A stretch of 64,000 nt of DNA from the NCBI GenBank assembly GCA_000403275.2, contig KE159601.1, forward strand, positions 186,001 through 250,000, given 5' to 3'. The notes beneath the pieces were generated by a model that saw only the letters and a list, made by a program, of their open reading frames with translations, was not told the DNA's origin and made no database searches. Positions 18,481 through 48,931 of this stretch are shown here, one piece after another (the stretch's first letter is position 1; every line of letters starts with the position of its first letter). The DNA is from Lachnospiraceae bacterium 28-4 (GTDB taxonomy: Bacteria; Bacillota; Clostridia; Lachnospirales; Lachnospiraceae). A program made the position numbers and the translations under genes.

Positions 18481-18535
18481 TTACTCGATAATCGTAGCAA
18501 CCCTACCAGAACCTACTGTACGTCCACCCTCACGG
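18481..18535 (-). other. attL: duplicated 3' end of tuf
   Basis: This stretch encodes [17 protein letters not shown] and a stop, the last codons of EF-Tu, on the minus strand. Bases 18505-18535 are identical to 47762-47792 in the intact tuf gene. The last six codons and stop differ at silent positions. No tuf sequence lies upstream of it, so it is an attachment-site duplicate rather than a second gene. Confidence 0.92.
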
Positions 18536-18629
18536 TTTTCTGTGGTGGAAATCAGGGTGATTGCGTGTGATTTTCAGGGCTTTTTCGGTACCTTTTTCTT
18601 TTATATGCATCCTGTATCTGAGGTTTTGG

Positions 18630-18656
18630 GAATTTTTGTTATCATGGTGTTATCAC
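18630..18656. repeat. Element-end direct repeat, left copy
   Basis: GAATTTTTGTTATCAT, two variable bases, then TGTTATCAC. The same unit occurs at 47630-47656 in the same orientation, each about 100 bases inside the element end. Likely integrase arm-type binding sites. Confidence 0.6.
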
Positions 18657-18675
18657 AAAACTCTTTCTAATTCAT

Positions 18676-18696
18676 TTGTGCAGACAGTCTGCACAA
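18676..18696. repeat. 21-bp palindrome after the DUF1016 gene
   Basis: TTGTGCAGAC, one base, then GTCTGCACAA. It ends two bases from the DUF1016 stop codon. A second copy with the same arms lies just upstream of that gene at 19727-19751. Confidence 0.9.
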
Positions 18697-18697
18697 T

Positions 18698-19711
18698 TTA
18701 TTTTTTCATATCAATCCTACTTCTAATCTCCTCCGGGTCTGGTAAAGCATTTTTCAAATCCAGCGGAAGATCTGTACACAAATGATATTCGCTTACACCA
18801 ATAGGTTTCGACATATCTCTTAACGCATATTCTGCAATGGTTCTATTCTCATCTCTACATAATATTAGTCCAACAGATGGATTATCGTCTGGGGATTTAA
18901 CCAAATCGTCCAGAGCTGACAAATAGAAATTCATTTTCCCTGCTTGCTCCGGTTTAAAATCACCTATCTTTAAATCAATCGCTACATAACATCTAAGCTT
19001 TGTATTATAAAAAAGAAGATCAATATAAAAATCCTTTCCGCCAATTTCAAGATGATATTGCTGTCCCATAAAGGCAAAACCGGTTCCTAATTCCATCAAT
19101 AGCGAAGTAACATTCCTTACCAACTCATTTTCTATATCTGTTTCCAACATATCCTCTGTATAATTGATAAAATCAAACATATATGGATCTTTCATAGTGC
19201 TTATAATAATATCCTTTTGTTCAATAGACAATCTGTTTTCAAAATTTGAAATCTTATTTGCTACAACTTGCCTCTCATACAGCTGACTCTTCACTTGGGA
19301 TGCCAATTCATCTACCGACCATCCATGCTCTAAAGTTTTTTCCAAATACCATACATATTCTTCCTGGCTTGACACCTTACTCATCAACACTTGATGATGG
19401 CTCCAAGTAATCCTTGCCAATCCATACTTATCCACATCATCCTCAGCGAAAATCTGTGCAAACTTCTTCATATACTTTAAATTTCGAACAGAATACCCTT
19501 TTGCACCAGGATATTTCAGCCTCATATCCTTAGATAAATTATCAACGAATTTATTACCCCATTTGGAGTTACGAATAATCACACTTCCTATGAACAAGTT
19601 TGTTTTCAGCACTTCACTATTCACACTAACGGATGCTCTATATTTAGCCTGATTCACATAATCATTTATTTCTTGTACTGCTTGCAAATACTCATTCGAT
19701 GTTATAAGCAT
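18698..19711 (-). CDS. DUF1016 (YhcG-type) PD-(D/E)XK nuclease-domain protein
   Basis: A 337-residue protein. The N-terminal half (ARASVSVNSEVLKTNLFIGS-like, WGNKFVDNLSKDMRLKYPGA, then YSVRNLKYMKKF) is the DUF1016 helical domain. The C-terminal half holds the nuclease-like core FYIDLLFYNTKLRCYVAIDLK, with D, D and a K in PD-(D/E)XK spacing. YhcG relatives are often near restriction systems and on mobile DNA; their exact activity is not established. The ATG at 19711 follows AAGGAAGG. The gene is bracketed by two copies of one palindrome. It is probably a defence accessory. Confidence 0.88.
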   Translation of the reverse strand: MLITSNEYLQAVQEINDYVNQAKYRASVSVNSEVLKTNLFIGSVIIRNSKWGNKFVDNLSKDMRLKYPGAKGYSVRNLKYMKKFAQIFAEDDVDKYGLARITWSHHQVLMSKVSSQEEYVWYLEKTLEHGWSVDELASQVKSQLYERQVVANKISNFENRLSIEQKDIIISTMKDPYMFDFINYTEDMLETDIENELVRNVTSLLMELGTGFAFMGQQYHLEIGGKDFYIDLLFYNTKLRCYVAIDLKIGDFKPEQAGKMNFYLSALDDLVKSPDDNPSVGLILCRDENRTIAEYALRDMSKPIGVSEYHLCTDLPLDLKNALPDPEEIRSRIDMKK

Positions 19712-19726
19712 ACTACCTTCCTTCCA

Positions 19727-19751
19727 AATTGTGCAGACCGTCTGCACAATT
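19727..19751. repeat. 25-bp palindrome before the DUF1016 gene
   Basis: AATTGTGCAGAC, one base, GTCTGCACAATT: a perfect palindrome between the PD-(D/E)XK gene and the DUF1016 ribosome site, with the same 10-base arms as 18676-18696. It could be an operator or terminator, or mark the edge of a gene cassette. Confidence 0.9.
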
Positions 19752-19763
19752 GTAAATAATATA

Positions 19764-20216
19764 TTATCTCTTACTCGCTGATGTTTGTTCTTCAGAATCT
19801 ATGATAAAAAGTTCCCTCGGATTTTCCCCATTATTCAGTCTTGATGCATGAAGTTCCTCTATCCTTTTATCTCGTCCAGGATTTCCAACTTTCACATACA
19901 CAAATACCCTTTGTGTTGTTCCTTCTGCTTTGACATATTGCTCAATCTGTTCTTCATATCCATGAATATAGTCAGCATTTGAAGAGAGTTTTATCTCAAC
20001 AACAGTCTTGTCGTTTCCTCTGCTCATCTTCAAATCAACCGGACCCGGACCTTCATTTGTCTCAAAAGTCATGTCTATGTTATTTTGGCTGCAATAATAT
20101 TTCCCCGAAAGATGTAAAAATCTTTGTAACGACTTTTCCCTTTTACTTGTGGAAGCGGATAATACTTCATCCCATCCTCTATTATTTTCAACCCAGTCTT
20201 TAAATATCCAAAGCAA
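19764..20216 (-). CDS. PD-(D/E)XK-like nuclease-fold protein, probably 5'-truncated
   Basis: A 150-residue protein with a nuclease-like core: GPGPVDLKMSRG followed by KTVVEIKLSSNADYIHGYEE, i.e. D...ExK, then FVYVKVGNPGRDKRIEELH. The open frame actually extends upstream without a start (KLSSWDATLELLWIFKDWV) until a stop just before 20247. The present protein therefore looks like the C-terminal part of a longer protein, and any start near 20216 lacks a ribosome site. It lies downstream of brxL. It could be a decayed restriction-type nuclease. Confidence 0.6.
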   Translation of the reverse strand: MLWIFKDWVENNRGWDEVLSASTSKREKSLQRFLHLSGKYYCSQNNIDMTFETNEGPGPVDLKMSRGNDKTVVEIKLSSNADYIHGYEEQIEQYVKAEGTTQRVFVYVKVGNPGRDKRIEELHASRLNNGENPRELFIIDSEEQTSASKR

Positions 20217-20361
20217 TTCAAGTGTTGCATCCCAGCTACTTAACTTTTAATACTTATCTTCCGTCATACTACATCAGATTCTTTTATGACACTAACAGTC
20301 ATAATATCTTTTACACCGCAGATGTTCCCCAACGTTCACAAACACTAAGTTCTTGAAGTAC

Positions 20362-22416
20362 TTATTCCACACCCAATGCTTTAAACACTGCATCCTCAAC
20401 ACTGTTGTAAAAAATAAGATTAAAGCATCCAATCAGCTCTGCCGGTACACTTCCCAAATCAACAGCAGATGTTATTGGTAAAAGTACTTTCTTTGCCCCA
20501 CTATCCAAGCATACTTGAAGCGTATTCGCAAGTTCTTCTACCTTCATAACAGTACCGCCAATACTGAAATCCCCAAGAACAACCGCACTGCTTACTACTG
20601 GCTTTCCTAATGCAACAGAACAAATCGCAACTACAGAGGCAAGAGACAGATTTTTTGTCATTCCAATACCATTCATATCCTGCACATCCATAATATAATC
20701 CTTAGTAGTAAGACTAATTGAACCACTAATTGATTTTGCATTTGCTTTCAGATAGCGATATGCCGTATCCACGGCTTCCTTCGCTTCTCTATCTGTACCC
20801 AATCCGGTCTTTTCAAACTTACCATTTCCAGCGGTCATCTGCATTTCCATCTTATAGACACCAAGCATACCAGATTTATTGTGACCAACTGTATATACAT
20901 GTCCCGGTTTACTCATGCCTTCAGGAATAAGTTTACTGCCCCCTTGCTCTGGTACTGGTACATATTCCTCTGAAAATGTCTCATTATCTATGTAAGCGAA
21001 ATTGACATCATAAAACTCCATACCGCCAATTTTCTTTTGCTGCTCTTTCACTCTTCGTCTCATTTCAAGCGCAAAACGTAGGATTTCCTCAACGCTTTCC
21101 TTATCAAACTTTCCATCCGGATGAATGAGCTTAATCATACCGGATACCGTTTTCTTTACTGCAATTACATCACGCTGGTTTAAATTGTTCCCCAACCTGT
21201 AATGATGCGCATAGGCATCTGCATATGAGATTTTTCTAAGTTCACGCATGATCTCTGAAAAATAGTCTGTGATAAAACCGTAGTCATTCGTAAAGAACTC
21301 CGGTCTATACTTAGGTATTTCCCATCCCGGAATATAACAATGGATGCGGTCTAAAAATGCCGTATCGTTTCCCATACTCTCCGGAAAAGGCTCAAATAAA
21401 TGTGAAGTCTTTAATATTGCATCTACACTCTGATTGATATTGCCGACAAATACCATTGAAGCGTAAGCATTCTTTTCCTCTTTACCTCTGGCAAAAGAAC
21501 CAGATGCCATATAGTCTTTCATAATCTGGACCCCATCCTGATCCTTGAACTTAATGCCCGCAACTTCATCAAAAGCAACGCAGTCCCACATTCCCACAAG
21601 ACCGACCTGCTTTGTTCCCATGTTATAAAATAAATTTGCCACGGTTGTCTGACCGCCGGACACCAAAATACTGTTAGGACTGATTTCTTTGTAAATATGT
21701 GATTTACCAGTCCCTCTTGGTCCTAACTCCACAAGATTGTAATTATTTTCTACAAGCGGAATAAGGCGTGCAAGATGCAGCCATTTCACACGCTTGTCAA
21801 ATTGTAACGGCTCCATACCCACACTTCTAAGTACCACATCTATCCATTCATCATCCGTGAAATTTTCCCTTGCTTCTTTCACTTCATCAAAGTCAAGGCT
21901 TGGCATCTGAATCGGTGTGAGCTTATGAATCAAAAACGGAGAACGGTTTTTATCAGCCTCATCATAGTAATATTCCATCTGGACTATACACCAGATACCG
22001 CCACATAATAGTCTTTCATAATCCCGAATATAGCTTTCTGCAGTTGGAACTTGCTTTATCCCTAAATTTGAAAACTCAGCTTCGTAAATATCTTCCCTGA
22101 TATTCAGATGTACAGATACACGGTCAATTACAGTATACGTTCCCTTTTCACGCAGCTTTGCAATAATTTTCTGTGCTTCATCTGGTCTGACATAATTCTC
22201 TGCCAGTATCCTTTTTACCGTTTCCACACCAGCCTCTATTTCATCCTCATCCAATGATGAACAATACATACCAAGCAAATATTCCAATACATATACCGGA
22301 ACATTTGCTCCTTCTTTTATTCTTTTTGTAAGGTCTTTGCGTACTATCTTTCCGGCAAAGTTTCTCTGCAATTTTTCCAAAAGCTCCGTATCGCCTTCAT
22401 ATTGAAAATCGCTCAT
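20362..22416 (-). CDS. brxL: BREX system Lon protease-like protein BrxL
   Basis: A 684-residue BrxL, the AAA+ / Lon-like component of type 1 BREX that binds DNA and is needed for phage restriction in many systems. The N-terminal ~180 residues are the BrxL DNA-binding region. Walker A GPRGTGKSH is near residue 233 and Walker B VAFDEVAG follows. The C-terminal ~130 residues are Lon-like (SLASVVAICSVALGKPV, VVLGDFSIGGTV, GAKKVLLP). Usual length. It starts 17 bases after pglZ, preceded by AAAGGCGG. Confidence 0.95.
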   Translation of the reverse strand: MSDFQYEGDTELLEKLQRNFAGKIVRKDLTKRIKEGANVPVYVLEYLLGMYCSSLDEDEIEAGVETVKRILAENYVRPDEAQKIIAKLREKGTYTVIDRVSVHLNIREDIYEAEFSNLGIKQVPTAESYIRDYERLLCGGIWCIVQMEYYYDEADKNRSPFLIHKLTPIQMPSLDFDEVKEARENFTDDEWIDVVLRSVGMEPLQFDKRVKWLHLARLIPLVENNYNLVELGPRGTGKSHIYKEISPNSILVSGGQTTVANLFYNMGTKQVGLVGMWDCVAFDEVAGIKFKDQDGVQIMKDYMASGSFARGKEEKNAYASMVFVGNINQSVDAILKTSHLFEPFPESMGNDTAFLDRIHCYIPGWEIPKYRPEFFTNDYGFITDYFSEIMRELRKISYADAYAHHYRLGNNLNQRDVIAVKKTVSGMIKLIHPDGKFDKESVEEILRFALEMRRRVKEQQKKIGGMEFYDVNFAYIDNETFSEEYVPVPEQGGSKLIPEGMSKPGHVYTVGHNKSGMLGVYKMEMQMTAGNGKFEKTGLGTDREAKEAVDTAYRYLKANAKSISGSISLTTKDYIMDVQDMNGIGMTKNLSLASVVAICSVALGKPVVSSAVVLGDFSIGGTVMKVEELANTLQVCLDSGAKKVLLPITSAVDLGSVPAELIGCFNLIFYNSVEDAVFKALGVE

Positions 22417-22433
22417 TCTGCCACCGCCTTTAC

Positions 22434-24968
22434 TTAAAATCCAAAATCATTTGCAAACGCCACATCCATGATAACTTCGTGTCGGAACACTTCCACATCA
22501 TTACTTTCATCATAAGCTACCAGATAGTACTTTTTGCTCTTGTCATATTTCTTGTTCTTAAATGTAAAACGCATACGGAACAATCTTTTCTGTACATCTC
22601 CATCTCTCTTATCTGCCACATAAATATTTTCATTGGAAATCTTTTCGACAAAATTATTTTTGTTATCCTCTGACAGAAAATAGAGCTTATATGTCGTTCC
22701 TTTTACCACATCACTGACTGGCTCTGACTGAATAAAATCAAGCGTAGTAATCAGGTTTGTTATTTTCTGTATCAGGCTCACAAGCATAATTTGAACGGCA
22801 CGTGTTTCCACCGCACCCTTATCCATCTTAATGTCAATTACCGGGACTAACATTTCCTGTGGAGATGAACCGCCATGTACATAATTAAGTCCGGCATTGC
22901 CTTTTGCAGAAAATACGCTTGTACTGCAAGAGTAAGATATAATCTTATCGTCTTCATTGCCAAGCATATATCCCAATCCTATATTTAATACGCCATCATC
23001 TACTACCGGATCCTTTGCAACAATATATCTGCGCTTTTTCAATTTGCCCGGCTCTTCTGCTGTACTTATCTTATCGCTCTGCTGTACCGGATTTCTCTTA
23101 TAAATAAATCCGTGATCAGATGTCACAATAAATCGGTAGGTATTTGCACTGTTTGAAATTCTCTGGATAAGTTCTGAAATCTCATCTACTGCTTTTGTAC
23201 AAGCCCGAAATACCTCATCCTCTGCATTCTCTCCTGCATTATCAATCCGGTCGTGATAAATATAGACCACCTGCTGTGATGTGAAAATTTCTCTAAGCTC
23301 CATGCCTTTCAGGGTTTTAATGTCACTGTACTTTACACAACGACTTTCAGCTACATAAGACTGCAATACTGCCTGTCTTGTTGATGTATCAACTGCATAC
23401 TTCCCATCCACAAGCTCTTTAAAATCGTCAGTCAGTTCTAATGTCTTGTGTGGCAGTAATGCCTCCATACCAAGTCTTGTATAGGATGGAAGTACACTAA
23501 GCATTGGCTTAATAGATAAGGAATCCTTACATTTAGGGTTGTCCTGCATCCGCTTATATAACTCGCATCCAACCTCAAAGCGCATACCGTCTGAAATAAT
23601 TACTACTGTACGCTCCTTATTAGAGCGCACATATTTACGAAAGAAATCTCTCTGTAACGGTATCACTGTAAGTGCATCCTGTTCCTTCAATCCATCATTC
23701 CATTTAGGTAACAGTTTTCCAAGATATTCATTTGTATAAATATTTTCCACAAGTTCACGAAGTTCCTCTAAACCGGATGTATCCTCCAATTCATCATAGT
23801 CCGTATAGAACGCCCTATAGCTGCAATCTATTACGCAGTCACTTGCCACATAATTATCTATAATCTTCTTGAATCCATCTACCGGCGCATAGCTTGCCTG
23901 ACTGATGATAAAGTACGCATTACTAAGCATCTGGTAGACCTTTGCGTACTTTCTTCCAAAGTGCATCTTAGATCGTATCTCGCATATTTCACACAAGTTT
24001 TTATCATCCAGTCTGGCAATCAAATCTTCTGCAAGCAGTCTCTCTTTTATCCAGCGTATCAGAATAATATCAATTTCTGCAAAGGAATCGCATTCAACCA
24101 GAGCTTCCGGCTCATACGTTGAAAGTATCTTTCCTGCATCCAACACCCCTACTACATAAGCTGACAGTTCATCATATCTATCCCTATATAGCACGTTATT
24201 CATCAGGTTATCCATGAATGCAATGATATTACCAGATTTATAAGAAACAAATCCTTTCCATCCCTTCGGAAGTTCCGTGCTGATATATCGATCTGCATAT
24301 GTCACAAACATAGAAATCACAAACTTTTCCAAAGTCGGTGCAGGAGATGAATAACCAAACTGCCGCTCTACATATTTCCAAAATGATTCCAGCAAATCAA
24401 ATTTACCAAAATCTGCAATAAACTTGTTATCCTCTAAAGTGTCATCCGTAAGCAATACCCGAATCACTTCATCAAAAGAGCAGGTACGTGTCTTACAAAC
24501 AGCACTCATAAGTCCCATAAGGATATTTTCCTCATTGAAATTCTCTATCTCTAAATCATAGAAACGCTGTGTTCTTTCTTTATTTACAAAGAATTTAATA
24601 TGCTTTTCTATGATTGGTTTATATTTTTCCTCAATTCCCAAATCAACCGACAAAAGAGATGCCCGGTCAGCATAAAATCTTTTAGAATAGAGCATTGTGT
24701 CCTCCAGATGGTTTTCAGATACCGGAGGTTTCGGAAAAGGCGCATATACCAGATAATTTGTGATGGTATCCACCTTTTCCAAGAAATATTTTGTATAAAA
24801 CTGATTACCCTGCTCCAATTTATATACTTTTGCATTGGCAAGCTCAATTCCATCAATATCCTCTGCAAACTCACCTTTTTCATCATACCAAAAGACAAGT
24901 TTTCTGGTATCTCCGGAAAATTCTGTATTCAGCTTATCTACAATTTGCTTTAAATTTAATTCTGCCAC
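22434..24968 (-). CDS. pglZ: BREX alkaline-phosphatase-superfamily protein PglZ
   Basis: An 844-residue type A PglZ. The N-terminus (LKQIVDKLN...RKLVFWYDEKGEF) is characteristic. The phosphatase-superfamily core follows with VVIISDGMRFE near residue 455 and IVTSDHGFIYKRN near residue 616, supplying metal-binding Asp/His. It is essential in type 1 BREX, where it probably acts in the modification complex with PglX. I chose the GTG at 24968, correctly spaced from GTGAGG; the GTG at 24980 overlaps the preceding gene more. Confidence 0.95.
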   Translation of the reverse strand: MAELNLKQIVDKLNTEFSGDTRKLVFWYDEKGEFAEDIDGIELANAKVYKLEQGNQFYTKYFLEKVDTITNYLVYAPFPKPPVSENHLEDTMLYSKRFYADRASLLSVDLGIEEKYKPIIEKHIKFFVNKERTQRFYDLEIENFNEENILMGLMSAVCKTRTCSFDEVIRVLLTDDTLEDNKFIADFGKFDLLESFWKYVERQFGYSSPAPTLEKFVISMFVTYADRYISTELPKGWKGFVSYKSGNIIAFMDNLMNNVLYRDRYDELSAYVVGVLDAGKILSTYEPEALVECDSFAEIDIILIRWIKERLLAEDLIARLDDKNLCEICEIRSKMHFGRKYAKVYQMLSNAYFIISQASYAPVDGFKKIIDNYVASDCVIDCSYRAFYTDYDELEDTSGLEELRELVENIYTNEYLGKLLPKWNDGLKEQDALTVIPLQRDFFRKYVRSNKERTVVIISDGMRFEVGCELYKRMQDNPKCKDSLSIKPMLSVLPSYTRLGMEALLPHKTLELTDDFKELVDGKYAVDTSTRQAVLQSYVAESRCVKYSDIKTLKGMELREIFTSQQVVYIYHDRIDNAGENAEDEVFRACTKAVDEISELIQRISNSANTYRFIVTSDHGFIYKRNPVQQSDKISTAEEPGKLKKRRYIVAKDPVVDDGVLNIGLGYMLGNEDDKIISYSCSTSVFSAKGNAGLNYVHGGSSPQEMLVPVIDIKMDKGAVETRAVQIMLVSLIQKITNLITTLDFIQSEPVSDVVKGTTYKLYFLSEDNKNNFVEKISNENIYVADKRDGDVQKRLFRMRFTFKNKKYDKSKKYYLVAYDESNDVEVFRHEVIMDVAFANDFGF

Positions 24969-24976
24969 AACAAGCC

Positions 24977-25669
24977 TCACTTTCTGCCTATACAGTTCCG
25001 CAACATTATTAGGAACTCATCCCATCCTAACGCAATCGTAACAATCGAACTAATCAGACCTATTACCACGATAATGTTGCTTATTATCTTGAATATGGTA
25101 CTAACTTTTATTTTTTGGCTTCTGGCTGCACTATATAGACCTGCCCAGCATAAAATATCTACCGGAAGTCCTACAAGCCGCCTAATTCCCTCTCCAAGAC
25201 ACGTAATCGGATTGAACAATCCTTTCTTTTCATTCTCGATAGCTCTCTCCAAATTCCCTATATGCCTTTTCAACGCATCTTCACATACCCCCATGAGCTG
25301 ATTGATTCTTTCCATTATTATAATATTATCTCTTTTAGAGACAGCATAGCGTATTTCAGGCATAATATTCATAAACAGCTGATAGTTTCTACCTTGCACA
25401 CCATGTAAGGGATCATAAAAACTGCTAAGTACGCCATCCATTCCAAGCTCTTGCTGTATTTTATCAACTTCCATAATAACCGCACTATATTTATTATTGT
25501 CTATACGATATGATGAAAAAGTCTCATTAACAAAATCAAAAAATTTATTATTAAACTCTGTCGTGAAGTCGCAACGTTTATTATAAGAATTTATCCTTCT
25601 ACATTTAATTGTAAATCCTATTACAATCATTGCAACTACAATCATTGCTGGAATTACATGATATATCAT
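24977..25669 (-). CDS. Small membrane protein within the BREX operon, unknown family
   Basis: A 230-residue protein I do not recognise. A membrane helix at residues 4-22 (VIPAMIVVAMIVIGF) and one near the C-terminus (IFKIISNIIVVIGLISSIVT) flank a soluble helical middle with FTTEFNNKFFDFVNETFSSY. It starts with ATG after GGAGGA and its stop lies next to the pglZ ribosome site, so it is translated with pglZ. Its position suggests a BREX-linked accessory, for example a membrane sensor or effector, but this is only context. Confidence 0.75.
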   Translation of the reverse strand: MIYHVIPAMIVVAMIVIGFTIKCRRINSYNKRCDFTTEFNNKFFDFVNETFSSYRIDNNKYSAVIMEVDKIQQELGMDGVLSSFYDPLHGVQGRNYQLFMNIMPEIRYAVSKRDNIIIMERINQLMGVCEDALKRHIGNLERAIENEKKGLFNPITCLGEGIRRLVGLPVDILCWAGLYSAARSQKIKVSTIFKIISNIIVVIGLISSIVTIALGWDEFLIMLRNCIGRK

Positions 25670-26505
25670 TTGTCCTCCAATTCATAAAATATATTTCAAT
25701 TATTTATAACCACTAAATGCTTTTCAACAAGTTCTTCAATAATAATCTTCAATTATGTAAACTTTAAATGAACATATAATATTTGTCAGTCTAATTGGTA
25801 CTCTATTTTTATTGCATTTATGCACTCTGCTTTTGTCATTTCTGCCAAATCGGCTTCATTTCGATCTATCACTGATGAAAAAATATCCCATATCTTTGAA
25901 AAATATTCGTCCTCTTTTTCTTCATCCCAAAAATCTGTTAAACGCCGCCAATCTATAGCCCACCGATGCCCCATTACTTCAAACAATTTTAAGTTAAAGG
26001 TCATAACACATGCTGTACAAATACTTGCACATTCCTGTAATTGTGCATATCCAACTCTGATAGATAATTTGTCAATACTAGGCGGTATATTCAACTGAAT
26101 AGCATTTTTCCCAGCCAAAACGCGGCTTGAATGAACAATAGCATGGCGCATTTGACATAACTTATCAAATTCATCTAATAGCTCACTTAATAATTCATTT
26201 TTATTTATATCAACCTTTAAACTATTTTTTAGTTCTTTTTTTATCGCAGAACTATCTGAAAAGGATATATTTTCAAAAATACCCTTTTCAAATTCTCCAC
26301 TTCTCTGCCACATCATTGAGCCAAAAGAAACACTTCGATTAGCCGTTTCTCTTTTACAGATTGGACAAATTTTAATACACTCTGTCAAAATTTCTCTAAT
26401 GTAATTCTCTGTTTTACTATGAAACACAACCTTCCGGGTAGCCCAAAAAGCGCAGACTGCCCCTGTCAAACTCAAAAAAGCTGATTTTAAACTTAACTGA
26501 CAGGT

Positions 26506-27741
26506 TTATGCGGCAACTACTGGAGCTTCCCAACCAAGCGCTTTTAACTTTTTAAGGTATGCATTGATCTTGCGTTCCTTGTTGAACTGGTTGTAATAAT
26601 CAGCTCCCAGATCCTTGAAAACAACACCATCCTTGAGGATGTGGTATATCGCAATGAGCATGGAATGGGCAACGGCCACATAGGCACGCCTTGTCCCTCG
26701 GTGGGCACTTATCCGCATAAACTGAGCATGGAAGTAAGACTTCTTGTTTTTTACAGCTGCATGCGCACAGGTGATCAATGTTGTCCGTAGTAGAGAGTTC
26801 CCTTTTCTGGTCTTTCCAGATTTTCTCTTTTTGGCGCTTTCATTGTCTCCAGGACACAACCCTGCCCAGGATGAAATGTGTTTATCCGTTGGAAAACGCT
26901 CCATATCCGTACCAATGACAGAAATGATGGCCTGGGCACTGGTATTGCCTATGCCAGTCACGTCCTGGATTGCCTGGGAAGCTTGCTTTTCCTCCGGTTT
27001 CATGAAGTTGTCAATCTCATCATCCAGATTTCTGATGTGAATATTCAGTTCGTCCAAATGGATGAGAAGTTCCTTCATCATCCGGCGCTGGAGAGATGAC
27101 ATGACACCATTGAGATCATCAATGATCTGCTCCCTGGTGGCTTTGAGATTATGGGCAATGACCTTCTGATTATACATCTCATCGTATTTTGCCTCATCGA
27201 TGGGCTCCCCGGTAAGGAGATACTCCAGGATGCTGCGGGCGCTTTTGCCATTGATGTCAGATACGGTCCCGGACAACTTGATGTTGGCTCCTTCCAGCAT
27301 CTTCTGGAGCCTGTTCAATTCTCTGGTACGTTCACCTACAAGGCTTTTGCGATAACGGACTAATTCCCTCAGTTCCCGCTGGTCTTTGTCGGGAATGTAA
27401 CTGGGCTGAAGCAGACCGTGCTGTAAAAGGTCAGCGATCCATTCCGCATCTTTTACGTCTGTTTTTCGACCTGGAACAGCTTTCATATGGCGGGCATTGA
27501 CCACCATGGCATTCAAGTCAGAAGATTCAAGGATGTTGTACAGAGGCTTCCAATAAGAGGCTGTACTCTCCATAGCGACCATTTCACAGCCGCCTTCTTT
27601 GAGCCAGTCAGCCAATGAGAGGAGTTCTCTGGTTGTTGCGCCAAACTCACGCACGTCCTGCTTTTTGCCGCATCGGAAGCAGGCAACGATAAGTTTTTTG
27701 TGAACATCAATACCACAACAATTGTCGTAAATTCTATCCAT
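26506..27741 (-). CDS. IS110 family DEDD transposase
   Basis: A 411-residue transposase. The N-terminal DEDD RuvC-like domain shows GIDVHKK (Asp12), AMESTASYW and GRKTDVKDAEWIADLL. The C-terminal Tnp20 domain shows DVTGIGNTSAQAIISVIG and FPTDKHISSWAGLCPGDNES, with the serine used in IS110 chemistry expected there. These enzymes cut and paste a circular intermediate guided by a bridge RNA. It appears complete. The start is preceded by GGAGG(TGCCAGT). Confidence 0.95.
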   Translation of the reverse strand: MDRIYDNCCGIDVHKKLIVACFRCGKKQDVREFGATTRELLSLADWLKEGGCEMVAMESTASYWKPLYNILESSDLNAMVVNARHMKAVPGRKTDVKDAEWIADLLQHGLLQPSYIPDKDQRELRELVRYRKSLVGERTRELNRLQKMLEGANIKLSGTVSDINGKSARSILEYLLTGEPIDEAKYDEMYNQKVIAHNLKATREQIIDDLNGVMSSLQRRMMKELLIHLDELNIHIRNLDDEIDNFMKPEEKQASQAIQDVTGIGNTSAQAIISVIGTDMERFPTDKHISSWAGLCPGDNESAKKRKSGKTRKGNSLLRTTLITCAHAAVKNKKSYFHAQFMRISAHRGTRRAYVAVAHSMLIAIYHILKDGVVFKDLGADYYNQFNKERKINAYLKKLKALGWEAPVVAA

Positions 27742-38764: not shown

Positions 38765-38783
38765 GTGTATTTGCACCTTTCCA

Positions 38784-39413: not shown

Positions 39414-39555
39414 TTGTTCATAAGCAATAAATGATTTCTTCTCTTACAATCTCCTCTGCCCTCGCCCTAATGCTATTCATTCTCTGTACCCAAAGCATCT
39501 GATTCTGTGCCTTTAACTGCTCCGTCACTCCCTCCCGCTTTGCCATCTGCTCCAC

Positions 39556-41070: not shown

Positions 41071-42465
41071 TTATAAGCTAATATCATGCTTTTTAATAGT
41101 TTTTTCTTTTTCCTGCGTATCTCTCTCAAACCCTAAATACTGCCTTATGTTCTTCAACTGCTTATCCGTTTCCATTGCCTCCTTTTCTGCTGTCTGGTAT
41201 GTTTTCTTCAACTTTGCTTTTTGCACTGTCATTGCATCATATTCCACCTGCATCTTTTCCACATCTAGTGAAGCAGTCTTTATCCCATATCGCTTCAACA
41301 TATTTTCAGCGCCGCCAAAGAGAATAATCTGTGTTTCATGACTCCGGAAATAGGCATCCTGATCCTTCGCTTTCTCATATCCCCTCTGGTATTTTCTGTT
41401 TGCCATATACTGTTTTGCGTATTTTAGGATTTCTGCTTTGGCTTTCATCTCATGCTCCAAATCCACAATCGCACTTCGTGCTGCTTTTGCTGTAGCATTT
41501 CTCTCTGATATTTTCTGTTTCAGTTCCTCTACCGAACCGCCCTCTGCATAACTCGCCGCAGCAATCTTTAAATTCTGTATATCCGCCCAATGCTTTAGCG
41601 CACCATTTTCTTGAAACTTCCCCTTGTCCGTATCAATCAAAGTCCGCTTTGCATCCGGTCGCTCTGGAAAGGGAAATTTCCTTTTTACAGGGAATCTTTC
41701 CTGTGCCTTTACACGTTTTTCGATTCTCTCTCTGATTAATTCTTTCGTATATCCCACACCGAAATTCTTTTCACTGACACGTGTAAAACGTGTCTGCCCT
41801 GAAGCAGAAAAAAATAAATATTTCAGCGCATTGTCTCCAAAAGTTTCCCCTTTTACCTCATATTCTTTTGTCTGCATCCGGCTGATAAAATCTTCATAGC
41901 TGTGTGCTTCACGAATAGCATTGTCCATATCAGATTTCATCCGCGCTTTCCAAGAAGTTCCCGCCTCTGCCATCTGCCACTCATAATGTGTCTTTCCTTT
42001 TTGTCCCGATGGAATAATGACCGACAATCCATGTTCCCTGCACAGTTCGTCTGACAAATTCCGTATCTGCCTGTATGTACGCTTACAGTCATTGTATTTT
42101 TTATGTTCCACATTATCAACCGCACAGAAAATGATATGATTATGACAGTGTTCCTTGTCTACATGCGTTGCAATGACATAACTGTATTTATTTTCTAACA
42201 GCTTGTCCGCAAGCTCTATCCCTACCTGATGAGCCGTATCAAAATCCACTTCTCCCGGCGCAAATGACTGAATCAGGTGGAATGCCTGTTTATTCCCAAC
42301 ACCGGAAGATTTTGATAACGCATCCATGAAATCATAATGCGCTGTCTCTATCCCACAGGCAAACGAATCTATCAAAATCTGTCCGTCAGTTTTCTCCGGA
42401 TTGCAGATATATTTTAATGCTTTCTGTACGGTTGCTTTGACAGCATGGATTCGTGTGTACGCCAT
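41071..42465 (-). CDS. MOBP-type relaxase / mobilisation nuclease
   Basis: A 464-residue relaxase that would nick the element's oriT and pilot the strand in conjugative mobilisation. The N-terminal domain has the metal-binding HVDKEHCHNH motif at residues 101-110, and the catalytic Tyr is expected near the N-terminus (for example the Tyr in KYICNPEK). The C-terminal half is charged coiled coil. The start lies inside the mobC gene by about 50 bases, and tnpV follows. No coupling protein is present, so a helper is needed. Confidence 0.9.
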   Translation of the reverse strand: MAYTRIHAVKATVQKALKYICNPEKTDGQILIDSFACGIETAHYDFMDALSKSSGVGNKQAFHLIQSFAPGEVDFDTAHQVGIELADKLLENKYSYVIATHVDKEHCHNHIIFCAVDNVEHKKYNDCKRTYRQIRNLSDELCREHGLSVIIPSGQKGKTHYEWQMAEAGTSWKARMKSDMDNAIREAHSYEDFISRMQTKEYEVKGETFGDNALKYLFFSASGQTRFTRVSEKNFGVGYTKELIRERIEKRVKAQERFPVKRKFPFPERPDAKRTLIDTDKGKFQENGALKHWADIQNLKIAAASYAEGGSVEELKQKISERNATAKAARSAIVDLEHEMKAKAEILKYAKQYMANRKYQRGYEKAKDQDAYFRSHETQIILFGGAENMLKRYGIKTASLDVEKMQVEYDAMTVQKAKLKKTYQTAEKEAMETDKQLKNIRQYLGFERDTQEKEKTIKKHDISL

Positions 42466-42755
42466 ACCTGTTTTATCAGCTCCTTTACTTCTTCCATATC
42501 TTCTCGATAAATATTACCTGTAGAACTTACCCTTGCCGCTATCTGGTTCAAGCTTTTGCTGATTCTGCTTAGATTGACATTGTAGACATGCAGTTCCGAG
42601 TAATCTACAAAATAAGTATATCCGTATAAAATTAAATGTCGAAGATAATCGTTTTTGTTCCTATATTCTGCATTTTTACACTTGGTATCTAAAATATACT
42701 TTTCATCATCACTCAACCGTAAAATAAGCTGATTGCTTCGTTTTCGTTTTTCCAT
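42414..42755 (-). CDS. MobC-like relaxosome protein
   Basis: A 113-residue protein of the bacterial mobilisation MobC family: RKRSNQLILRLSDDEKYILD at the start (ribbon-helix-helix style), then LSRISKSLNQIAARVSSTGN, the signature of MobC. It assists the relaxase at oriT. The ATG at 42755 follows GGAGG. It overlaps the relaxase start, implying coupled translation. Confidence 0.88.
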   Translation of the reverse strand: MEKRKRSNQLILRLSDDEKYILDTKCKNAEYRNKNDYLRHLILYGYTYFVDYSELHVYNVNLSRISKSLNQIAARVSSTGNIYREDMEEVKELIKQVWRTHESMLSKQPYRKH

Positions 42756-42842
42756 TCTCAACCTCCATTATTTTATTGACTAAAAATTGATACTATTGTT
42801 TTCTTGCTCTGCATTCCGTTCTATATGCATTTCATAAGGGGT

Positions 42843-42923
42843 TAGGGGATTTTTCCCCTACAAGCGGATTGGATATCCATTTTGCAAACGTGTAAATGGT
42901 GCAAAATCGTCATTTGGATATCC
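42843..42923. other. Candidate oriT region upstream of mobC
   Basis: The 378-base gap (42756-43133) next to the relaxosome genes holds a hairpin TAGGGGA/TCCCCTA (42843-42860). It also holds a larger imperfect inverted repeat between GGATATCCA (42871) and TTTGGATATCC (42913-42923), with internal TTTTGCA/TGCAAAA. Inverted repeats beside mobC-relaxase genes are typical of oriT. The nick site is not identifiable by eye. Confidence 0.5.
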
Positions 42924-43133: not shown

Positions 43134-43535
43134 CTACTCTCCCATTGAAAAAGCAAAATCCAACATATCTTCTGCAATCTCCTCTTCCTGCTCCGGTTTG
43201 GATACTTGCGTTTCATCAAGTCTTTGTTCTGCACCTTGAAAAACAGCTTTGTCGGCAAAATAATTGGTTATGCCCTCCAACACAACTCCCGCAACCTTAT
43301 TTGCAAAGGCGCTAAATTCATTAGTTGAATCTTTATGCAATTCTCCTAAAAATCGTTTTCTCTCCGCATTTTGAGCATTATTTTGCCTATCTATCACTGC
43401 AATAAGCGCATCCGCAAGTACTTTTCCATAAGAACCATCCCTGCGGTTCAACCCATGCAGATATTCCCATGCCCTGCGCTGGTTCTCATCTTCCATGCAA
43501 AATTTTACATTGGTACAGCGATATGTTCCTCTCAT
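43134..43535 (-). CDS. ParR-like partner of the ParM protein
   Basis: A 133-residue protein following parM by 60 bases. MRGTYRCTNVKFCMEDENQR and RRAWEYLHGLNRRDGSYGKV resemble the ribbon-helix-helix N-terminus of ParR-type adaptors; the C-terminus is acidic. I chose the ATG at 43535 after AGGAAAGG. In type II partition systems ParR binds parC DNA and seeds ParM filaments. Family recognition is by pattern and position only. Confidence 0.6.
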   Translation of the reverse strand: MRGTYRCTNVKFCMEDENQRRAWEYLHGLNRRDGSYGKVLADALIAVIDRQNNAQNAERKRFLGELHKDSTNEFSAFANKVAGVVLEGITNYFADKAVFQGAEQRLDETQVSKPEQEEEIAEDMLDFAFSMGE

Positions 43536-43595
43536 AAAACTTATTCCTTTCCTAAAACTCAATCTATGTCTTATCGGATATGGAAACAGTGCTGT

Positions 43596-44513
43596 CTATC
43601 TGCGTAATTTCTTCTCCGCCAAAGTCTCATATCCCTTTGCATTGGCGCAAATATCCGTAATAAAAGTCACTCCTGCCTTCTCCGCTAAATCCGAATAATT
43701 TCGGAGCAGACAGCCGCCTCCGCCAATCACATACAGATGTACCAACCCTTCCTTATATCCATAATCCACCAAACGCCTTCTGATATTTTCTGTATACCTC
43801 GTTGCAATATGTTCTACTTTCTTAGCGGTACTATCTGTTCTTTCCTGTAAACCGTTCCGAAGAAGCGGTTCTATCAGCATTTCAGGAATATCCTCTCCGT
43901 TTTCTTTTGATAATTCTTTCTGTATCTCTTTCATACAGATGCCCACACCAAATTTGTCCGTCACAAGGCTCTTTTCCAACGGTTTATTGTCAACAATCTG
44001 CATAACATTCATAGTCCCGTTTCCAATGTCCGCCAGCATATTCATTCTCTGCATTGCTCCTAAATTAACAACAGCCGCAAATCCCTGTGGAAATATTTCT
44101 ACGCCGCACAAATGCACATGATATCTCTCTTTTCGGAACTCAAAATGCAGTTCCTGTTCTTTCATCAAATAGCGCTTAAAGTCTGCTCCCTGACTTTTCA
44201 TCCATGCAAGTGGAAGTCCAACTGCCAATATCACATTTGCCTCATGAAGTCCTCTGAACTTCAATTCCTCCGCAAATGCCGCCAGTGTCAGAATATAAAA
44301 GGCTTCGGAATCTGTTTTATTCCCCTGATATACCAAGTGCGACTCTCCAATTACATAAAACTTACTCTTATATTTCACAAAATTCTTACTGACAATCGGC
44401 TCTTCCTCCATACATTCCACGCCTGTCCGGAATACCCTGTGTGCGGTCTTCATATTTCCATATCCATGATCCACACCGACAATTATTCTTGTATTGCTGT
44501 TAAATTTCTGCAT
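43596..44513 (-). CDS. ParM/StbA-like actin-family segregation protein
   Basis: A 305-residue actin-fold ATPase. Phosphate 1 loop VGVDHGYGNMKTA is near residue 13, phosphate 2 MLADIGNGTMNVMQI near residue 160, and the adenosine-loop-like LYVIGGGGCLLRNY near residue 265. It would form filaments that segregate DNA. It sits between the integrase and relaxase genes of an integrated element, suggesting a replicating circular stage or plasmid ancestry. The start follows GGAGGAC. Confidence 0.88.
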   Translation of the reverse strand: MQKFNSNTRIIVGVDHGYGNMKTAHRVFRTGVECMEEEPIVSKNFVKYKSKFYVIGESHLVYQGNKTDSEAFYILTLAAFAEELKFRGLHEANVILAVGLPLAWMKSQGADFKRYLMKEQELHFEFRKERYHVHLCGVEIFPQGFAAVVNLGAMQRMNMLADIGNGTMNVMQIVDNKPLEKSLVTDKFGVGICMKEIQKELSKENGEDIPEMLIEPLLRNGLQERTDSTAKKVEHIATRYTENIRRRLVDYGYKEGLVHLYVIGGGGCLLRNYSDLAEKAGVTFITDICANAKGYETLAEKKLRR

Positions 44514-44680: not shown

Positions 44681-44712
44681 GCAGATTAAATTGTTCCACC
44701 AATTTAATCTGC
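44681..44712. terminator. 13-bp perfect inverted repeat at the integrase stop
   Basis: GCAGATTAAATTG (44681-44693) and CAATTTAATCTGC (44700-44712) flank a six-base loop. The integrase stop codon TAA lies in one arm. No T-run follows immediately, so it may protect the 3' end of the transcript or weakly terminate it. Confidence 0.55.
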
Positions 44713-45813
44713 ATCCAAAATGTCCCTGTTTCCGGCAGGGGCATTTTCATTTGATGCCTCATTCCTCTTCCGGTTCAGCATATCCGCAACTTTCTTCTGC
44801 TCGTTGGGATATAAATGCCCATATGTATTCAGGGTAATCTTGATATCCTTGTGTCCCATGCGTTCCTTGATGACCATAGGCGCTACTCCCTGATGCGCTA
44901 GATACGCACATGCGGAATGTCTTAGATCATGCACCCTGATTCTTTTTACTCCCGATTTCTGAATGTGTCTTATCATCTTATGCTGCACAGCTTCACATAC
45001 AATGGGGAAAAGCCTTTCGCTGTCGGGAAATTCACACAGTTTATCACAATACGCCTTGATTTCCTGCGTCAAAAATTCGGGAATATCTATTGTTCGGACT
45101 GACTGTTCCGTCTTAGGCGTTGTGATGACATCTTTTCCCCCTGTACGGTAATAAGTTTTTGAAATGGATATTTTGTTCTCCTGAAAATTTACGTCACTTT
45201 TTAATAACGCAAGTAATTCTCCAATGCGCATACCCGTCCAGAATAAAATTTCAAACAGCACATAATATCTGCTTCCCACTTCAATCGTATTAATGAACTG
45301 CTGGTACTCCTCATAAGTCCAGAAATCCATTTTATCCGCATCTGACTTCCCCATTTTCTTTACTTTCTTGCAGGGATTGTTTGTCAGGTTGTAGATATTG
45401 GAAGCATGGATAAATAACGCTGTCATCTGATTCTGAAGCATCCGCAGATATGTCTGCGAATATCCAGCCTCCCGCATTTTGTTCTGCCACTGGATAATGT
45501 CTGCCGGTGTAATTTCATTCATGGACTTATTTTCAAAGTACGGAAGGATATGCCGTTCAATCATATATCTCTTATTTTTGATTGACCGTTCCTTTAACTC
45601 TCCCTGCTTATCCCTGAAATAAGTCTCAACAAAAGCTCCCACTTTCATATTCATGTCTGCTTCTGTTGTCTGCATAAACTGTTCCTCATACTCTTTCGCC
45701 TCCCTCTTTGTTTTGAAACCTCTTTTGCACTCTTGTTTCTGTCTGCCCGTCCAATCATTGTAACGGAACATACAATACCATGTTCCCCTCTGCTCATCTT
45801 TATAGACTGACAT
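44704..45813 (-). CDS. int: Tyrosine integrase of the tuf-inserted element
   Basis: A 369-residue tyrosine recombinase of ICE/phage type. The N-terminal AP2-like arm-binding domain (GTWYCMFRYNDWTGRQKQEC) and SAM-like core-binding domain precede a catalytic domain with Arg196 in FWTGMRIGELL, HDLRHS and GHKDIKITLNTYGHL (His and nucleophilic Tyr). It is the best candidate for integration at the 31-bp tuf site; its gene lies about 2 kb inside the right end. Confidence 0.94.
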   Translation of the reverse strand: MSVYKDEQRGTWYCMFRYNDWTGRQKQECKRGFKTKREAKEYEEQFMQTTEADMNMKVGAFVETYFRDKQGELKERSIKNKRYMIERHILPYFENKSMNEITPADIIQWQNKMREAGYSQTYLRMLQNQMTALFIHASNIYNLTNNPCKKVKKMGKSDADKMDFWTYEEYQQFINTIEVGSRYYVLFEILFWTGMRIGELLALLKSDVNFQENKISISKTYYRTGGKDVITTPKTEQSVRTIDIPEFLTQEIKAYCDKLCEFPDSERLFPIVCEAVQHKMIRHIQKSGVKRIRVHDLRHSACAYLAHQGVAPMVIKERMGHKDIKITLNTYGHLYPNEQKKVADMLNRKRNEASNENAPAGNRDILDAD

Positions 45814-45939
45814 AAAATCTCCTTTCCTCTCAGGACAGTCTGCGGCTTATCATAAAATCAAGCCTACAGTACCGCCCCTAAATTTGCTTTTTGTTTCAGC
45901 CGCATATCCTGTATATCTGAATATTGTGCCGACCGTCTG

Positions 45940-46137: not shown

Positions 46138-46169
46138 CTACCTCCCTCCTCCTGCACTGACGCTGTATA

Positions 46170-46251
46170 TTGTCAAGTTTTTATTCTTAGCATGCATTTT
46201 ATCTTGACTTATTCTCCATGATAAAACATCACCGGATATTTGTCAAGATAA
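46170..46251. promoter_or_regulatory. Divergent regulatory region with inverted TTATCTTGAC repeats
   Basis: TTATCTTGAC (46199-46208) and its complement GTCAAGATAA (46242-46251) form a spaced inverted repeat. Related TTGTCAAG (46171-46178) and TATCTTGTGATAG (near 46270) lie beside it. They sit between the excisionase-like gene and the divergent DUF6076 gene and look like operators for a shared regulator. Confidence 0.55.
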
Positions 46252-46360
46252 TTTTATTGATTTCTTTTTTATCTTGTGATAGTATTGTATCTATAAGAAA
46301 AGAAATGAGTTTCAGAGAGACTATTTTACGCCGTTCAGCTGATAGAAAGGAATTTTAAGT

Positions 46361-47593
46361 ATGAATTTATATTCGCCGGACATCATCAAAAATGATTTTC
46401 ACTTTAGTGTTGCAACCTACAGCATTAACCATCATACCCACGAAGAAACGTTTTCTTCCATTTATGATGATGAGAATACGCACAAAAGCAGTGCCGCCTA
46501 TTTTATAAAAAAAGCGCCTATCCATACCAATATTATGGAAATTCTTGATTATGATATGCCTGAAAAGGAATCCGCTGTTGTAGCATTTCAGAAATTGAAG
46601 TCTGTTTTGCCATTACTCGGCATTGACTGCCCCTTTCACAAAGAAACCTTCAATTTATATTGCAGCAAACACACACCAAAAGATGTCGAGACTTCTGCTG
46701 GACAAATCATGCCGATATTGCAGTCCTGCTTTGAAGGACATCCGGCACTGTCTTATCTGTATCCTTTATTTCATATGATAATGTGCTCCTGCTATCAGCA
46801 AGCCGGAAAATCAGCCGATGCGCAACTGCTTCAAAGCGCCAAACTATTATCCGAAGAAGTCAGCAGTCTTGAGACCTTATATACACAGGCAAGAGATTAT
46901 TTAGATGAAGTTATCGTAGAGCCGACAAAACAAGATGTACAACTGCCTAGCAGTACAATAGCTGAAATATACCATTCTTATTGCCTGTATGCTAGTAAGC
47001 AGGATTTTCAATCGGATGCATTATCCGCCATGGCAATAAAAGAAACTTTTCTGCCTAACATTCATACCCATACAGATGCTCATTCCAATACACAAGATTG
47101 GATAGAATATTTAAACCATGCCTCTAACCTTATTACAGATAATGTAATCGGGAAATACCCTGTTACATCATTCAAACAGTTCTTATATATAGGCATCCGA
47201 CTACTGCTTGAAGACGAACTCGTTATCAAAAGATGCAGACTATGCAATGGATATTTCCGCGTGAAGTATACTTCCAACCAAGAATACTGCACAAGAATAT
47301 ACAGAGACACTTCCACTACCTGTAATGAATACGCCAGCCGGAAATCCTATAAGGAAAAGTTATTCAGCCATCCGATTCATACGGAATTTACGAAATCATA
47401 TAACAGGCTGTATGCCCGCATCCGCAGAGGGAAACTCCCTGCTGACACGCCGCTCATGGATCAGCTTAAGACACTCCATGACGAATATACCGAAAAATAT
47501 GAGAACACACACCAGAAAGACCGAGAAGCTATTTGGAAAGAATATATAGAAAAAAATAAAGAATTGCTCAAGTTAGATTCTTCAAAATCTTAA
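46361..47593 (+). CDS. DUF6076 domain protein with zinc-finger-like motif
   Basis: A 410-residue protein of the DUF6076 type, commonly near integrases of clostridial integrative elements. The N-terminal ~280 residues are helical and unrecognised. Near residue 295 a cysteine cluster KRCRLCNGYFRVKYTSNQEY...CTRIYRDTSTTC looks like a zinc finger. A charged C-terminal helix follows. It is the only element gene on the plus strand and is divergent from xis/int. Function unknown; DNA binding is a reasonable guess. Confidence 0.75.
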   Translation: MNLYSPDIIKNDFHFSVATYSINHHTHEETFSSIYDDENTHKSSAAYFIKKAPIHTNIMEILDYDMPEKESAVVAFQKLKSVLPLLGIDCPFHKETFNLYCSKHTPKDVETSAGQIMPILQSCFEGHPALSYLYPLFHMIMCSCYQQAGKSADAQLLQSAKLLSEEVSSLETLYTQARDYLDEVIVEPTKQDVQLPSSTIAEIYHSYCLYASKQDFQSDALSAMAIKETFLPNIHTHTDAHSNTQDWIEYLNHASNLITDNVIGKYPVTSFKQFLYIGIRLLLEDELVIKRCRLCNGYFRVKYTSNQEYCTRIYRDTSTTCNEYASRKSYKEKLFSHPIHTEFTKSYNRLYARIRRGKLPADTPLMDQLKTLHDEYTEKYENTHQKDREAIWKEYIEKNKELLKLDSSKS

Positions 47594-47629
47594 TGAAATA
47601 ACACAGCAAACATTTTTCTTAGAATTAGC

Positions 47630-47656
47630 GAATTTTTGTTATCATTCTGTTATCAC
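47630..47656. repeat. Element-end direct repeat, right copy
   Basis: GAATTTTTGTTATCAT, two variable bases, TGTTATCAC; matches 18630-18656 in the same orientation. It lies about 105 bases inside the right core site. Confidence 0.6.
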
Positions 47657-47681
47657 GGCTTACCAATCCCGCCAAGCATCG

Positions 47682-47715
47682 AAAAAAGGACTCTCCGAGA
47701 AACCTCGGAAAGTCC
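47682..47715 (-). terminator. New tuf terminator supplied by the element
   Basis: GGACTTTCCGAG and CTCGGAGAGTCC arms (minus strand) followed by TTTTTTC, 22 bases after the tuf stop. It lies inside the integrated element and replaces the original terminator now at 18412-18449. Confidence 0.88.
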
Positions 47716-47737
47716 CATAAATTCAACGAATTTTCAA

Positions 47738-48931
47738 TTACTCAATAATCGTAGCCACACGACCAGAACCTACTGTACGTCCACCCTCACGGATAGCAAA
47801 AGTAAGACCCTGCTCCATAGCGATAGGATGGATCAGTTCGATCGTCATCTCTACGTTATCACCAGGCATGCACATTTCTGTGCCTTCCGGTAAATTACAT
47901 ACGCCTGTTACGTCAGTTGTTCTGAAGTAGAACTGCGGTCTGTAGTTATTGAAGAAAGGAGTATGGCGTCCGCCTTCATCTTTTGTCAGAACGTAAACCT
48001 GAGCTGTAAATTTCTTATGGCATGTTACAGAACCGGGTTTGGAAAGAACCTGTCCTCTTTCGATTTCAGTTCTCTGAACACCACGAAGCAATGCACCAAT
48101 GTTATCACCAGCCTGAGCTTCGTCAAGCATCTTACGGAACATTTCAATACCTGTAACAACCGTTTTCTTTGTTTCTTCTTTGATACCAACGATTTCAACT
48201 TCTTCGTTCAAGTGAAGCGTACCACGCTCAACACGACCCGTAGCAACTGTACCACGGCCTGTAATTGTGAATACGTCCTCAACAGGCATAAGGAAAGGCT
48301 TATCTGTATCACGCTGCGGATCCGGAACGTACTCATCAACTGCGCTCATCAGTTCAAGAACTTTGTCACCCCATTCGCTGCTGGGATCTTCCAGAGCCTT
48401 CAAAGCGGAACCCTGGATAACCGGGATATCATCGCCCGGGAATTCGTACTCGGACAGCAATTCTCTGATTTCCATCTCAACCAGTTCAAGCAATTCAGCA
48501 TCGTCTACCATATCGCATTTGTTCATGAATACTACGATATAAGGAACGCCTACCTGACGGGACAGAAGGATATGCTCTTTTGTCTGAGCCATAACACCGT
48601 CCGTAGCTGCAACAACGAGGATAGCGCCGTCCATCTGAGCAGCACCTGTGATCATGTTCTTTACATAGTCAGCATGCCCAGGGCAGTCAACGTGTGCATA
48701 GTGTCTCTTCTCTGTTTCATACTCAACGTGAGCTGTGGAAATTGTAATACCACGTTCTCTCTCTTCCGGAGCCTTATCGATCATATCGAACGCAACAGCT
48801 TCACCTGTACCAAGCCTTACGTTCAATGTCTTTGTAATTGCAGCGGTCAAAGTTGTTTTACCATGATCAACGTGACCAATGGTTCCAATATTACAATGGG
48901 GTTTGTTTCTTTCAAATTTAGCTTTAGCCAT
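47738..48931 (-). CDS. tuf: Elongation factor Tu
   Basis: A complete 397-residue EF-Tu, which brings aminoacyl-tRNA to the ribosome. The G-domain motifs [18 protein letters not shown] and NKCDMVDD are intact, as is the C-terminal [14 protein letters not shown] after AAAGGAGGA. It follows fusA with its own promoter. The last six codons and stop are contributed by the integrated element but encode the normal sequence, so the gene remains functional. Confidence 0.99.
47762..47792. other. attR core in the tuf 3' end
   Basis: Thirty-one bases identical to 18505-18535, in the coding sequence for the last residues of EF-Tu. To the left the tuf codons come from the element; to the right they are chromosomal. 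Confidence 0.9.

Follow-up and report, generated by a model that had tools for sequence, protein, structure and literature searches.

A BREX type 1 operon on a probable integrative and mobilisable element at the 3' end of tuf in Lachnospiraceae bacterium 28-4

Integrative and mobilisable elements (IMEs) that target the 3' ends of genes have been described, among them SGI1 at trmE/thdF and the streptococcal IMEs (PMC5704250). Here, we analysed 64,000 nucleotides of Lachnospiraceae bacterium 28-4 (assembly GCA_000403275.2, contig KE159601.1, positions 186,001 to 250,000; this whole 64-kb stretch is called the window), in which an element with a bacteriophage exclusion (BREX) type 1 operon lies at the 3' end of tuf, the gene of elongation factor Tu (EF-Tu). 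As far as the accessible part of PMC5704250 goes, the element shares with the IMEs treated there a terminal integrase, core repeats derived from a gene 3' end, a relaxase with an accessory Mob gene, the lack of detectable transfer pore genes and tandem accretion with decayed partners, while it differs in its site (tuf has 0 occurrences in that part of the source), its ParM-like gene and its BREX cargo. The operon resembles the BREX type 1 systems of Bacillus cereus, Escherichia coli, Salmonella and Acinetobacter in its six genes and their order. Unlike those, it holds three accessory open reading frames (ORFs) between pglX and pglZ, namely an ORC/CDC6-like ATPase, a gene with a weak HEPN match and a 230-aa ORF, and a YhcG-like nuclease after brxL. 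Precedents for BREX as cargo of integrated mobile elements are the SXT integrative and conjugative elements (ICEs) of Vibrio and the integrase-linked BREX of Salmonella (PMC9958689). However, both concern Proteobacteria, in which ICEs or islands occupy other sites, whereas here a small mobilisable element sits at tuf in a gut member of the Lachnospiraceae. IME_Rho_tet is likewise an IME family spread in gut Bacillota, but it is found mostly in small MAFF2-type ORFs and carries tetracycline resistance, and the accessible text on it mentions neither tuf nor BREX (PMC12904643). Among the matches listed, the accessible open-licence literature yielded no description of a tuf-integrated BREX element.

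We read the locus, with a probability of about 0.9, as an integrative mobilisable element of 29,257 bp with BREX type 1 cargo, placed in the 3' end of tuf by a tyrosine integrase. Sequence comparison within the window showed two exact 31-bp direct repeats that bound the element at the tuf 3' end, in agreement with the first-pass annotation, which had reported 31-bp repeats of the tuf end around 29.3 kb of inserted DNA. The features of the boundaries are as follows.

18505 to 18535, minus strand: left (distal) core repeat of 31 bp, within a 54-nt tuf tail (18481-18534) that has a stop codon of its own
47762 to 47792, minus strand: right (proximal) core repeat of 31 bp, within the 3' end of the intact tuf
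47738 to 48931, minus strand: tuf (EF-Tu); the final codons and the stop fall on the element side, past the core
47687 to 47716, minus strand: terminator-like hairpin (13 bp) downstream of tuf, to the element side of the core

The 31-bp repeat has exactly 2 exact copies in the 4.28-Mb host genome and 0 further sites at up to 3 mismatches; a chance origin was ruled out on these counts. Both copies are embedded in 54-nt tuf tails (18481-18534 and 47738-47791), which are identical at 50/54 positions. As all four mismatches are synonymous, both tails encode the same 17 residues and stop, and the tuf body translated with either tail gives the same 397-aa EF-Tu, which is therefore the same whether the element is present or absent. 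The tuf stop lies downstream of the core, and the last codons and the stop of the present tuf are provided by the right element end. Since the element carries its own copy of the final tuf codons, the stop and the terminator, EF-Tu remains whole.

Both element ends bear the same integrase arm-type repeat, a feature absent from the first-pass annotation.

18637 to 18655, plus strand: distal arm-type repeat, TGTTATCA twice at an 11-bp pitch
47637 to 47655, plus strand: proximal arm-type repeat, TGTTATCA twice at an 11-bp pitch

On the plus strand, TGTTATCA occurs 5 times in 64 kb (18637, 18648, 47637, 47648 and once within tuf), and 4 of the 5 copies make up the two end pairs. The same layout was found in 23 tuf records, which were picked for carrying tails or integrases and thus describe layout and not frequency: an arm pair lay 121-123 nt before the tail in 21/24 element-bounded tails versus 0/19 tails preceded by a tuf gene. 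An arm word was present at both ends in 15 of the 20 elements bounded by two tails, and the two words agreed in all 15.

Counted from tuf, the gene order is DUF6076, integrase, ParM-like actin, a small ORF, NikA-like MobC, relaxase and an IS630-like transposase, followed by the BREX operon.

46361 to 47593, plus strand: DUF6076 gene (Pfam), a backbone gene of the subfamily
44704 to 45813, minus strand: tyrosine integrase with N-terminal arm-binding domain (Pfam)
43596 to 44513, minus strand: ParM-like actin (ALP_N, Pfam)
43134 to 43562, minus strand: small ORF after parM, parR-like by position only, conserved in relatives
42834 to 42866, minus strand: candidate origin of transfer (oriT) region, a short inverted repeat upstream of mobC
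42414 to 42761, minus strand: mobC (NikA-like; family match, E 1.3e-7)
41071 to 42465, minus strand: relaxase (MobA/VirD2-like; Pfam PF03432, E 3.4e-36; 39% identity to plasmid relaxases)
39623 to 40822, plus strand: IS630-like transposase (Pfam), absent from the two closest sister elements (G061 and G069, see below)

The integrase comprises an arm domain, a SAM-like domain and a catalytic domain. As claimed in the first-pass annotation, integrase, relaxase and MobC lie inside the repeats, each open over its length and with a family match. Of the features that define an IME, a site-specific integrase with flanking core repeats and a relaxase with a relaxosome accessory gene are present. No match to a type IV secretion system (T4SS) or coupling protein was found among the element ORFs of at least 90 aa scanned with Pfam. 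Elsewhere, the host genome holds 5 T4SS coupling-protein matches, 3 of them long, which point to candidate helpers for transfer.

All six core BREX genes are intact and follow the canonical order brxA-brxB-brxC-pglX-pglZ-brxL with strong family matches. PglX and PglZ exceed the cut-offs of their BREX-1 models (NF033452, 1423 bits over 500; TIGR02687, 526 over 270), so the complete type 1 system proposed earlier holds, and the repeat and gene-content observations of the first-pass annotation are confirmed.

38162 to 38776, minus strand: brxA (family match)
37572 to 38165, minus strand: brxB (family match)
33781 to 37455, minus strand: brxC (family match)
29948 to 33727, minus strand: pglX (BREX-1 methyltransferase); in G069, residues about 460-1145 are exchanged
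22434 to 24980, minus strand: pglZ (BREX-1 type A; family matches)
20362 to 22416, minus strand: brxL (Pfam, PADLOC and NCBIfam TIGR02653)

Near-identical elements were found in two other hosts, Lachnospiraceae IMSAGC_005 (G061) and isolate A77_70 (G069). One G061 contig matches the element at 99.6% across 6955 bp and at 99.3% across 5776 bp, and a second one, which includes the far element end, at 99.5% across 4445 bp; the G061 tuf is 85.0% identical to that of the window. For G069, identity amounts to 92.0% in the backbone, 98.6-99.4% in the BREX segments outside brxC-pglX and 95.5% in the segment running into pglX, with a tuf identity of 80.2%. An element (G061) or BREX operon outside pglX (G069) at 98.6-99.6% identity in hosts with 80-85% identical tuf genes indicates that element and host histories differ. 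The search for empty tuf sites in relatives, suggested in the first-pass annotation, yielded uninterrupted tuf ends in 4 same-genus genomes (L053-L056), with no backbone gene in the 8 kb examined and no arm pairs. The arm repeats, the near-identical elements in hosts with distant tuf genes and the uninterrupted same-genus tuf ends together support the mobility predicted for the element.

The PglX proteins of the window and G069 differ by an exchanged stretch. They are 96-100% identical over residues 1-450, 86% over 451-500, only 16-66% per 50-residue block over 501-1150, and 100% over 1151-1250. In Salmonella PglX, according to the accessible part of PMC11341690, the recognition domain comprises residues 662-849 and is followed by spacer helices (850-960). 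As the exchanged part covers the region matching the Salmonella recognition domain, the two operons should recognise different motifs.

A sequence of events can be proposed from the gene content. The N-terminal domain of the integrase would bind the arm word and its catalytic part the tuf core, and excision would yield a circle that ParM and the putative ParR might help to maintain. The relaxase would nick the candidate oriT upstream of mobC, with the transfer pore presumably lent by a resident conjugative element. BREX, if expressed, would methylate the motif set by PglX and block unmethylated phage DNA. The specificity part of PglX is exchanged between sister elements. The view of the first-pass annotation, in which a BREX operon on a tuf-integrated mobilisable element forms a defence vehicle, finds support in the sequence and in the relatives.

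Several observations weigh against this reading. Excision, transfer and phage resistance are steps which we infer. The hairpin upstream of mobC is conserved in 5/5 aligned elements, and its role as oriT is a guess. Of the partition genes proposed earlier, the ParM-like actin was found, whereas ParR is assigned by position, with 0 family matches above cut-off in the profile scan. No arm pairs were seen at 3/24 element-bounded tails (G074, one tail of G075, and G080). No circle with a joined attachment site (attP) was found in viral contigs, where an IMG/VR scan with the integrase came back empty. Among six faecal virome records, one (L102, MT839393.1), a 4.3-kb record filed as phage with a tuf-type integrase, contains a tuf tail. 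It has arm pairs on both sides of the tail, however with unlike words (TGATAAC before, TGATACT after), and none of the six records has a terminal overlap; L102 therefore does not show a circle. Finally, the gap between pglX and pglZ is filled by an accessory module in which one gene is split by IS110. The module and the two genes beyond brxL are listed here.

28226 to 29917, minus strand: ORC/CDC6-like P-loop ATPase of 563 aa, BREX accessory gene (Pfam PF24389, E 3.6e-13; 100% in G069)
26506 to 27741, minus strand: IS110-family transposase; the alignment with G069 loses colinearity at 26416 and 28014
25786 to 26475, minus strand: 3' part of an accessory gene interrupted by IS110 (L080 has the gene intact, 280 aa; weak HEPN match below threshold)
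24977 to 25669, minus strand: 230-aa accessory ORF overlapping the pglZ start (no family match; 97% in G069)
19764 to 20216, minus strand: 150-aa ORF (no family match), adjoining yhcG in relatives too
18698 to 19747, minus strand: YhcG-like PDDEXK nuclease (DUF1016_N and YhcG_C, Pfam), the last gene of the element

The G069 counterpart of the split gene is open (280 aa, L080:472-1314) and starts within the ATPase stop region. The only Pfam hints for the split gene stayed below cut-off (HEPN_RiboL-PSP, E 0.012), and single-sequence structure prediction of its remaining part was uninformative (mean predicted local distance difference test score 35.9). The ORC-like ATPase is rare, with 4/397 family genomes at E <=1e-20 including its own. 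The other three share 25-28% identity and had no matched BREX genes within 15-19 kb; the other BREX-1 operons compared (L093-L095) are without it. A PDB sequence search with this ATPase gave no convincing match (best E 0.012). A sister tuf element (L074:13754-16240) encodes a protein kinase domain fused to an ORC/CDC6-like domain. The YhcG-like nuclease is 100% identical in L099 and 96% identical in the 216 residues that the G069 stretch covers.

The best-surviving alternative is a fixed relic, which entered tuf site-specifically, can no longer leave or move alone and at most moves with its neighbours. Two insertion sequences lie inside the element (IS110 and IS630, a detail added to the first-pass annotation), one accessory gene is split, and scraps of a decayed tuf element are found at the left; decayed tandem partners are common for IMEs in the accessible part of PMC5704250. 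However, neither insertion damages a core BREX gene, even if IS110 may affect how pglZ and brxL are transcribed. The genes for integrase, relaxase and MobC are intact, as are the two arm pairs. Furthermore, a copy with 99.3-99.6% identity in a host with 85% tuf identity speaks for recent movement, so we consider the relic unlikely. The left flank contains the following features.

18358 to 18504, minus strand: segment beyond the left repeat that resembles, at 90-94% identity, the tuf-proximal end of another type of tuf element (L058, L068, L076, L077)
12949 to 13514, minus strand: scraps of another, decayed tuf element, with remnants of the relaxase and integrase region

Leftward from 18504, the segment 18358-18504 is followed by a three-recombinase transposon-like unit and then by the scraps, which indicate that tuf was hit more than once here. 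The segment is without the arm repeats of the element type it resembles. The same state is seen at the far element end in G061 (L099), and L055, from a same-genus genome without backbone genes, has a weaker match (75% across 129 nt). The segment may be either a native terminator or a relic. Insertion at tuf as such stands, but the left repeat does not simply abut ancestral chromosome; that it marks plain ancestral DNA was not accepted as proven, given the resemblance of 18358-18504 to the tuf-proximal end of another element. A search further to the left, through the rest of the window and the adjoining 40 kb, revealed no second decayed tuf tail (best 28/54). The transposon-like unit (13605-18262) consists of three tyrosine recombinase genes in a row near the tuf array, flanked by small ORFs that are IS66-like by resemblance only, without a family match.

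BREX might also be a host defence island captured by the element only here, its tie to the vehicle being accidental. When one genome per species was scanned, integrase relatives turned up at 20 loci, by title from Lachnospiraceae, Roseburia, Parablautia, Dorea and others. An intact tuf adjoins the integrase in 12 of them, and 4 more (L023, L026, L033, L036) have a tuf-tail copy upstream within about 2.3 kb. In other Lachnospiraceae, the backbone (DUF6076, integrase, ParM-like gene, small ORF, MobC, relaxase) is again present at tuf, combined with other cargo. Sister tuf elements without BREX exist, 13/21 genomes have no brxC match, and of the 8/21 with one, three (G070, G073, G076) carry other, related BREX-1 operons (brxC 65-66%) on contigs without a tuf tail match. 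Besides the window, brxC lies on a tuf element only in G061 (99%) and G069 (98%) among these 21 genomes. As both bear the same BREX operon, accessory genes and end genes on their tuf elements, an accidental capture appears improbable. The first-pass annotation had counted BREX-less relatives with the duplicated tuf tail as speaking against its proposal. Such relatives do occur, without refuting it: they share the backbone and carry other cargo, and they own duplicated tuf tails because BREX is exchangeable cargo.

The other cargo was surveyed in 110 cargo ORFs from 16 sister elements, scanned as two sets; outside these sets were ORFs spanning two retrieved stretches, most short ORFs, the G075 elements and two small elements, the first of G063 and the second of G067. 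Scans of single proteins assigned type IIG enzymes to G068 and G078, type II methyltransferases to G076 and G087, a type II restriction enzyme to G084 and a type I restriction subunit to G064. G067 has a type I methyltransferase and a specificity subunit together with a KAP ATPase, and G077 has a match to NsnA. In G063, PrimPol and prokaryotic Argonaute models matched, which may be replication genes. Overall, 11/19 elements, three BREX carriers included, had a defence-model match, while 8/19 showed no clear defence system (G061 first, G063 second, G064 second, G074, G076 first and third, G080, G086).

That the element is a phage satellite or defective prophage and not borne by conjugation seems very improbable: integrase relatives occur in 2434 phage records (best about 60% identity, some of them short faecal virome scaffolds), but no structural or packaging gene was found among the ORFs examined, a relaxase and a NikA-like MobC are present, and the integrase was unmatched in IMG/VR. 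Tuf genes are known for gene conversion, but an origin of the repeats by conversion or duplication of the tuf end independent of the integrase is hardly credible, given the matched distance of the repeat from identical arm pairs at both ends and the recurrence of this geometry in 21/24 element-bounded tails.

Beyond the mobilisable element itself, tandem arrays at tuf are common among the records examined. The same arm word on both sides was found at 0/13 junctions (shuffled partners, probability of zero 0.095). The arrays of G063 and G067 look related, which weakens this test, and avoidance of a shared word between neighbours is only suggestive and a lead. For integrase pairs with different words, the N-terminal 56 residues are on average 46% identical versus 62% for the catalytic part (176 pairs); diverged same-word pairs show 62% for both (21 pairs). 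The N-minus-catalytic identity is 16 points higher for same-word pairs, a value reached in 0/5000 shuffles, although these pairs are non-independent, with about three separate comparisons among the diverged ones. Contrary to the rule, TGGCTCT pairs with G077 have 44% in the N-terminal part versus 61-62%. In the host genome, at least 4 integrases with 43-46% identity to that of the element (L085-L087) are arrayed at the 3' end of a gene which we take, from its translated reading frame, to be guaA. This array has arm pairs of the same 11-bp pitch, with the words alternating TGGCAAC, TGATAAC, TGGCAAC, TGATACC.

Tentatively, and with slightly more doubt than confidence, the tuf 3' end may be pictured as a defence landing strip of gut Lachnospiraceae. 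The integrases would share the tuf core, and each would read a private arm word with its N-terminal domain, so that unlike elements could stack without cross-excision. Such a stack would form an exchangeable rack of BREX and of type I, IIG and II restriction-modification, and BREX would be retargeted by swapping the recognition part of PglX between near-identical elements.

With the element described here, BREX gains a defined and delimited vehicle in gut Firmicutes, whose predicted core and arm sites are directly testable. With the family of tuf elements one can ask how a single chromosomal site accommodates several elements that have a target core in common, perhaps through private arm words. 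The two operons of about 99% identity with different PglX specificity regions offer a natural motif change that can be compared by methylation calling. The duplicated tuf tail together with the arm pair provides a marker for mobile defence islands in metagenomes.

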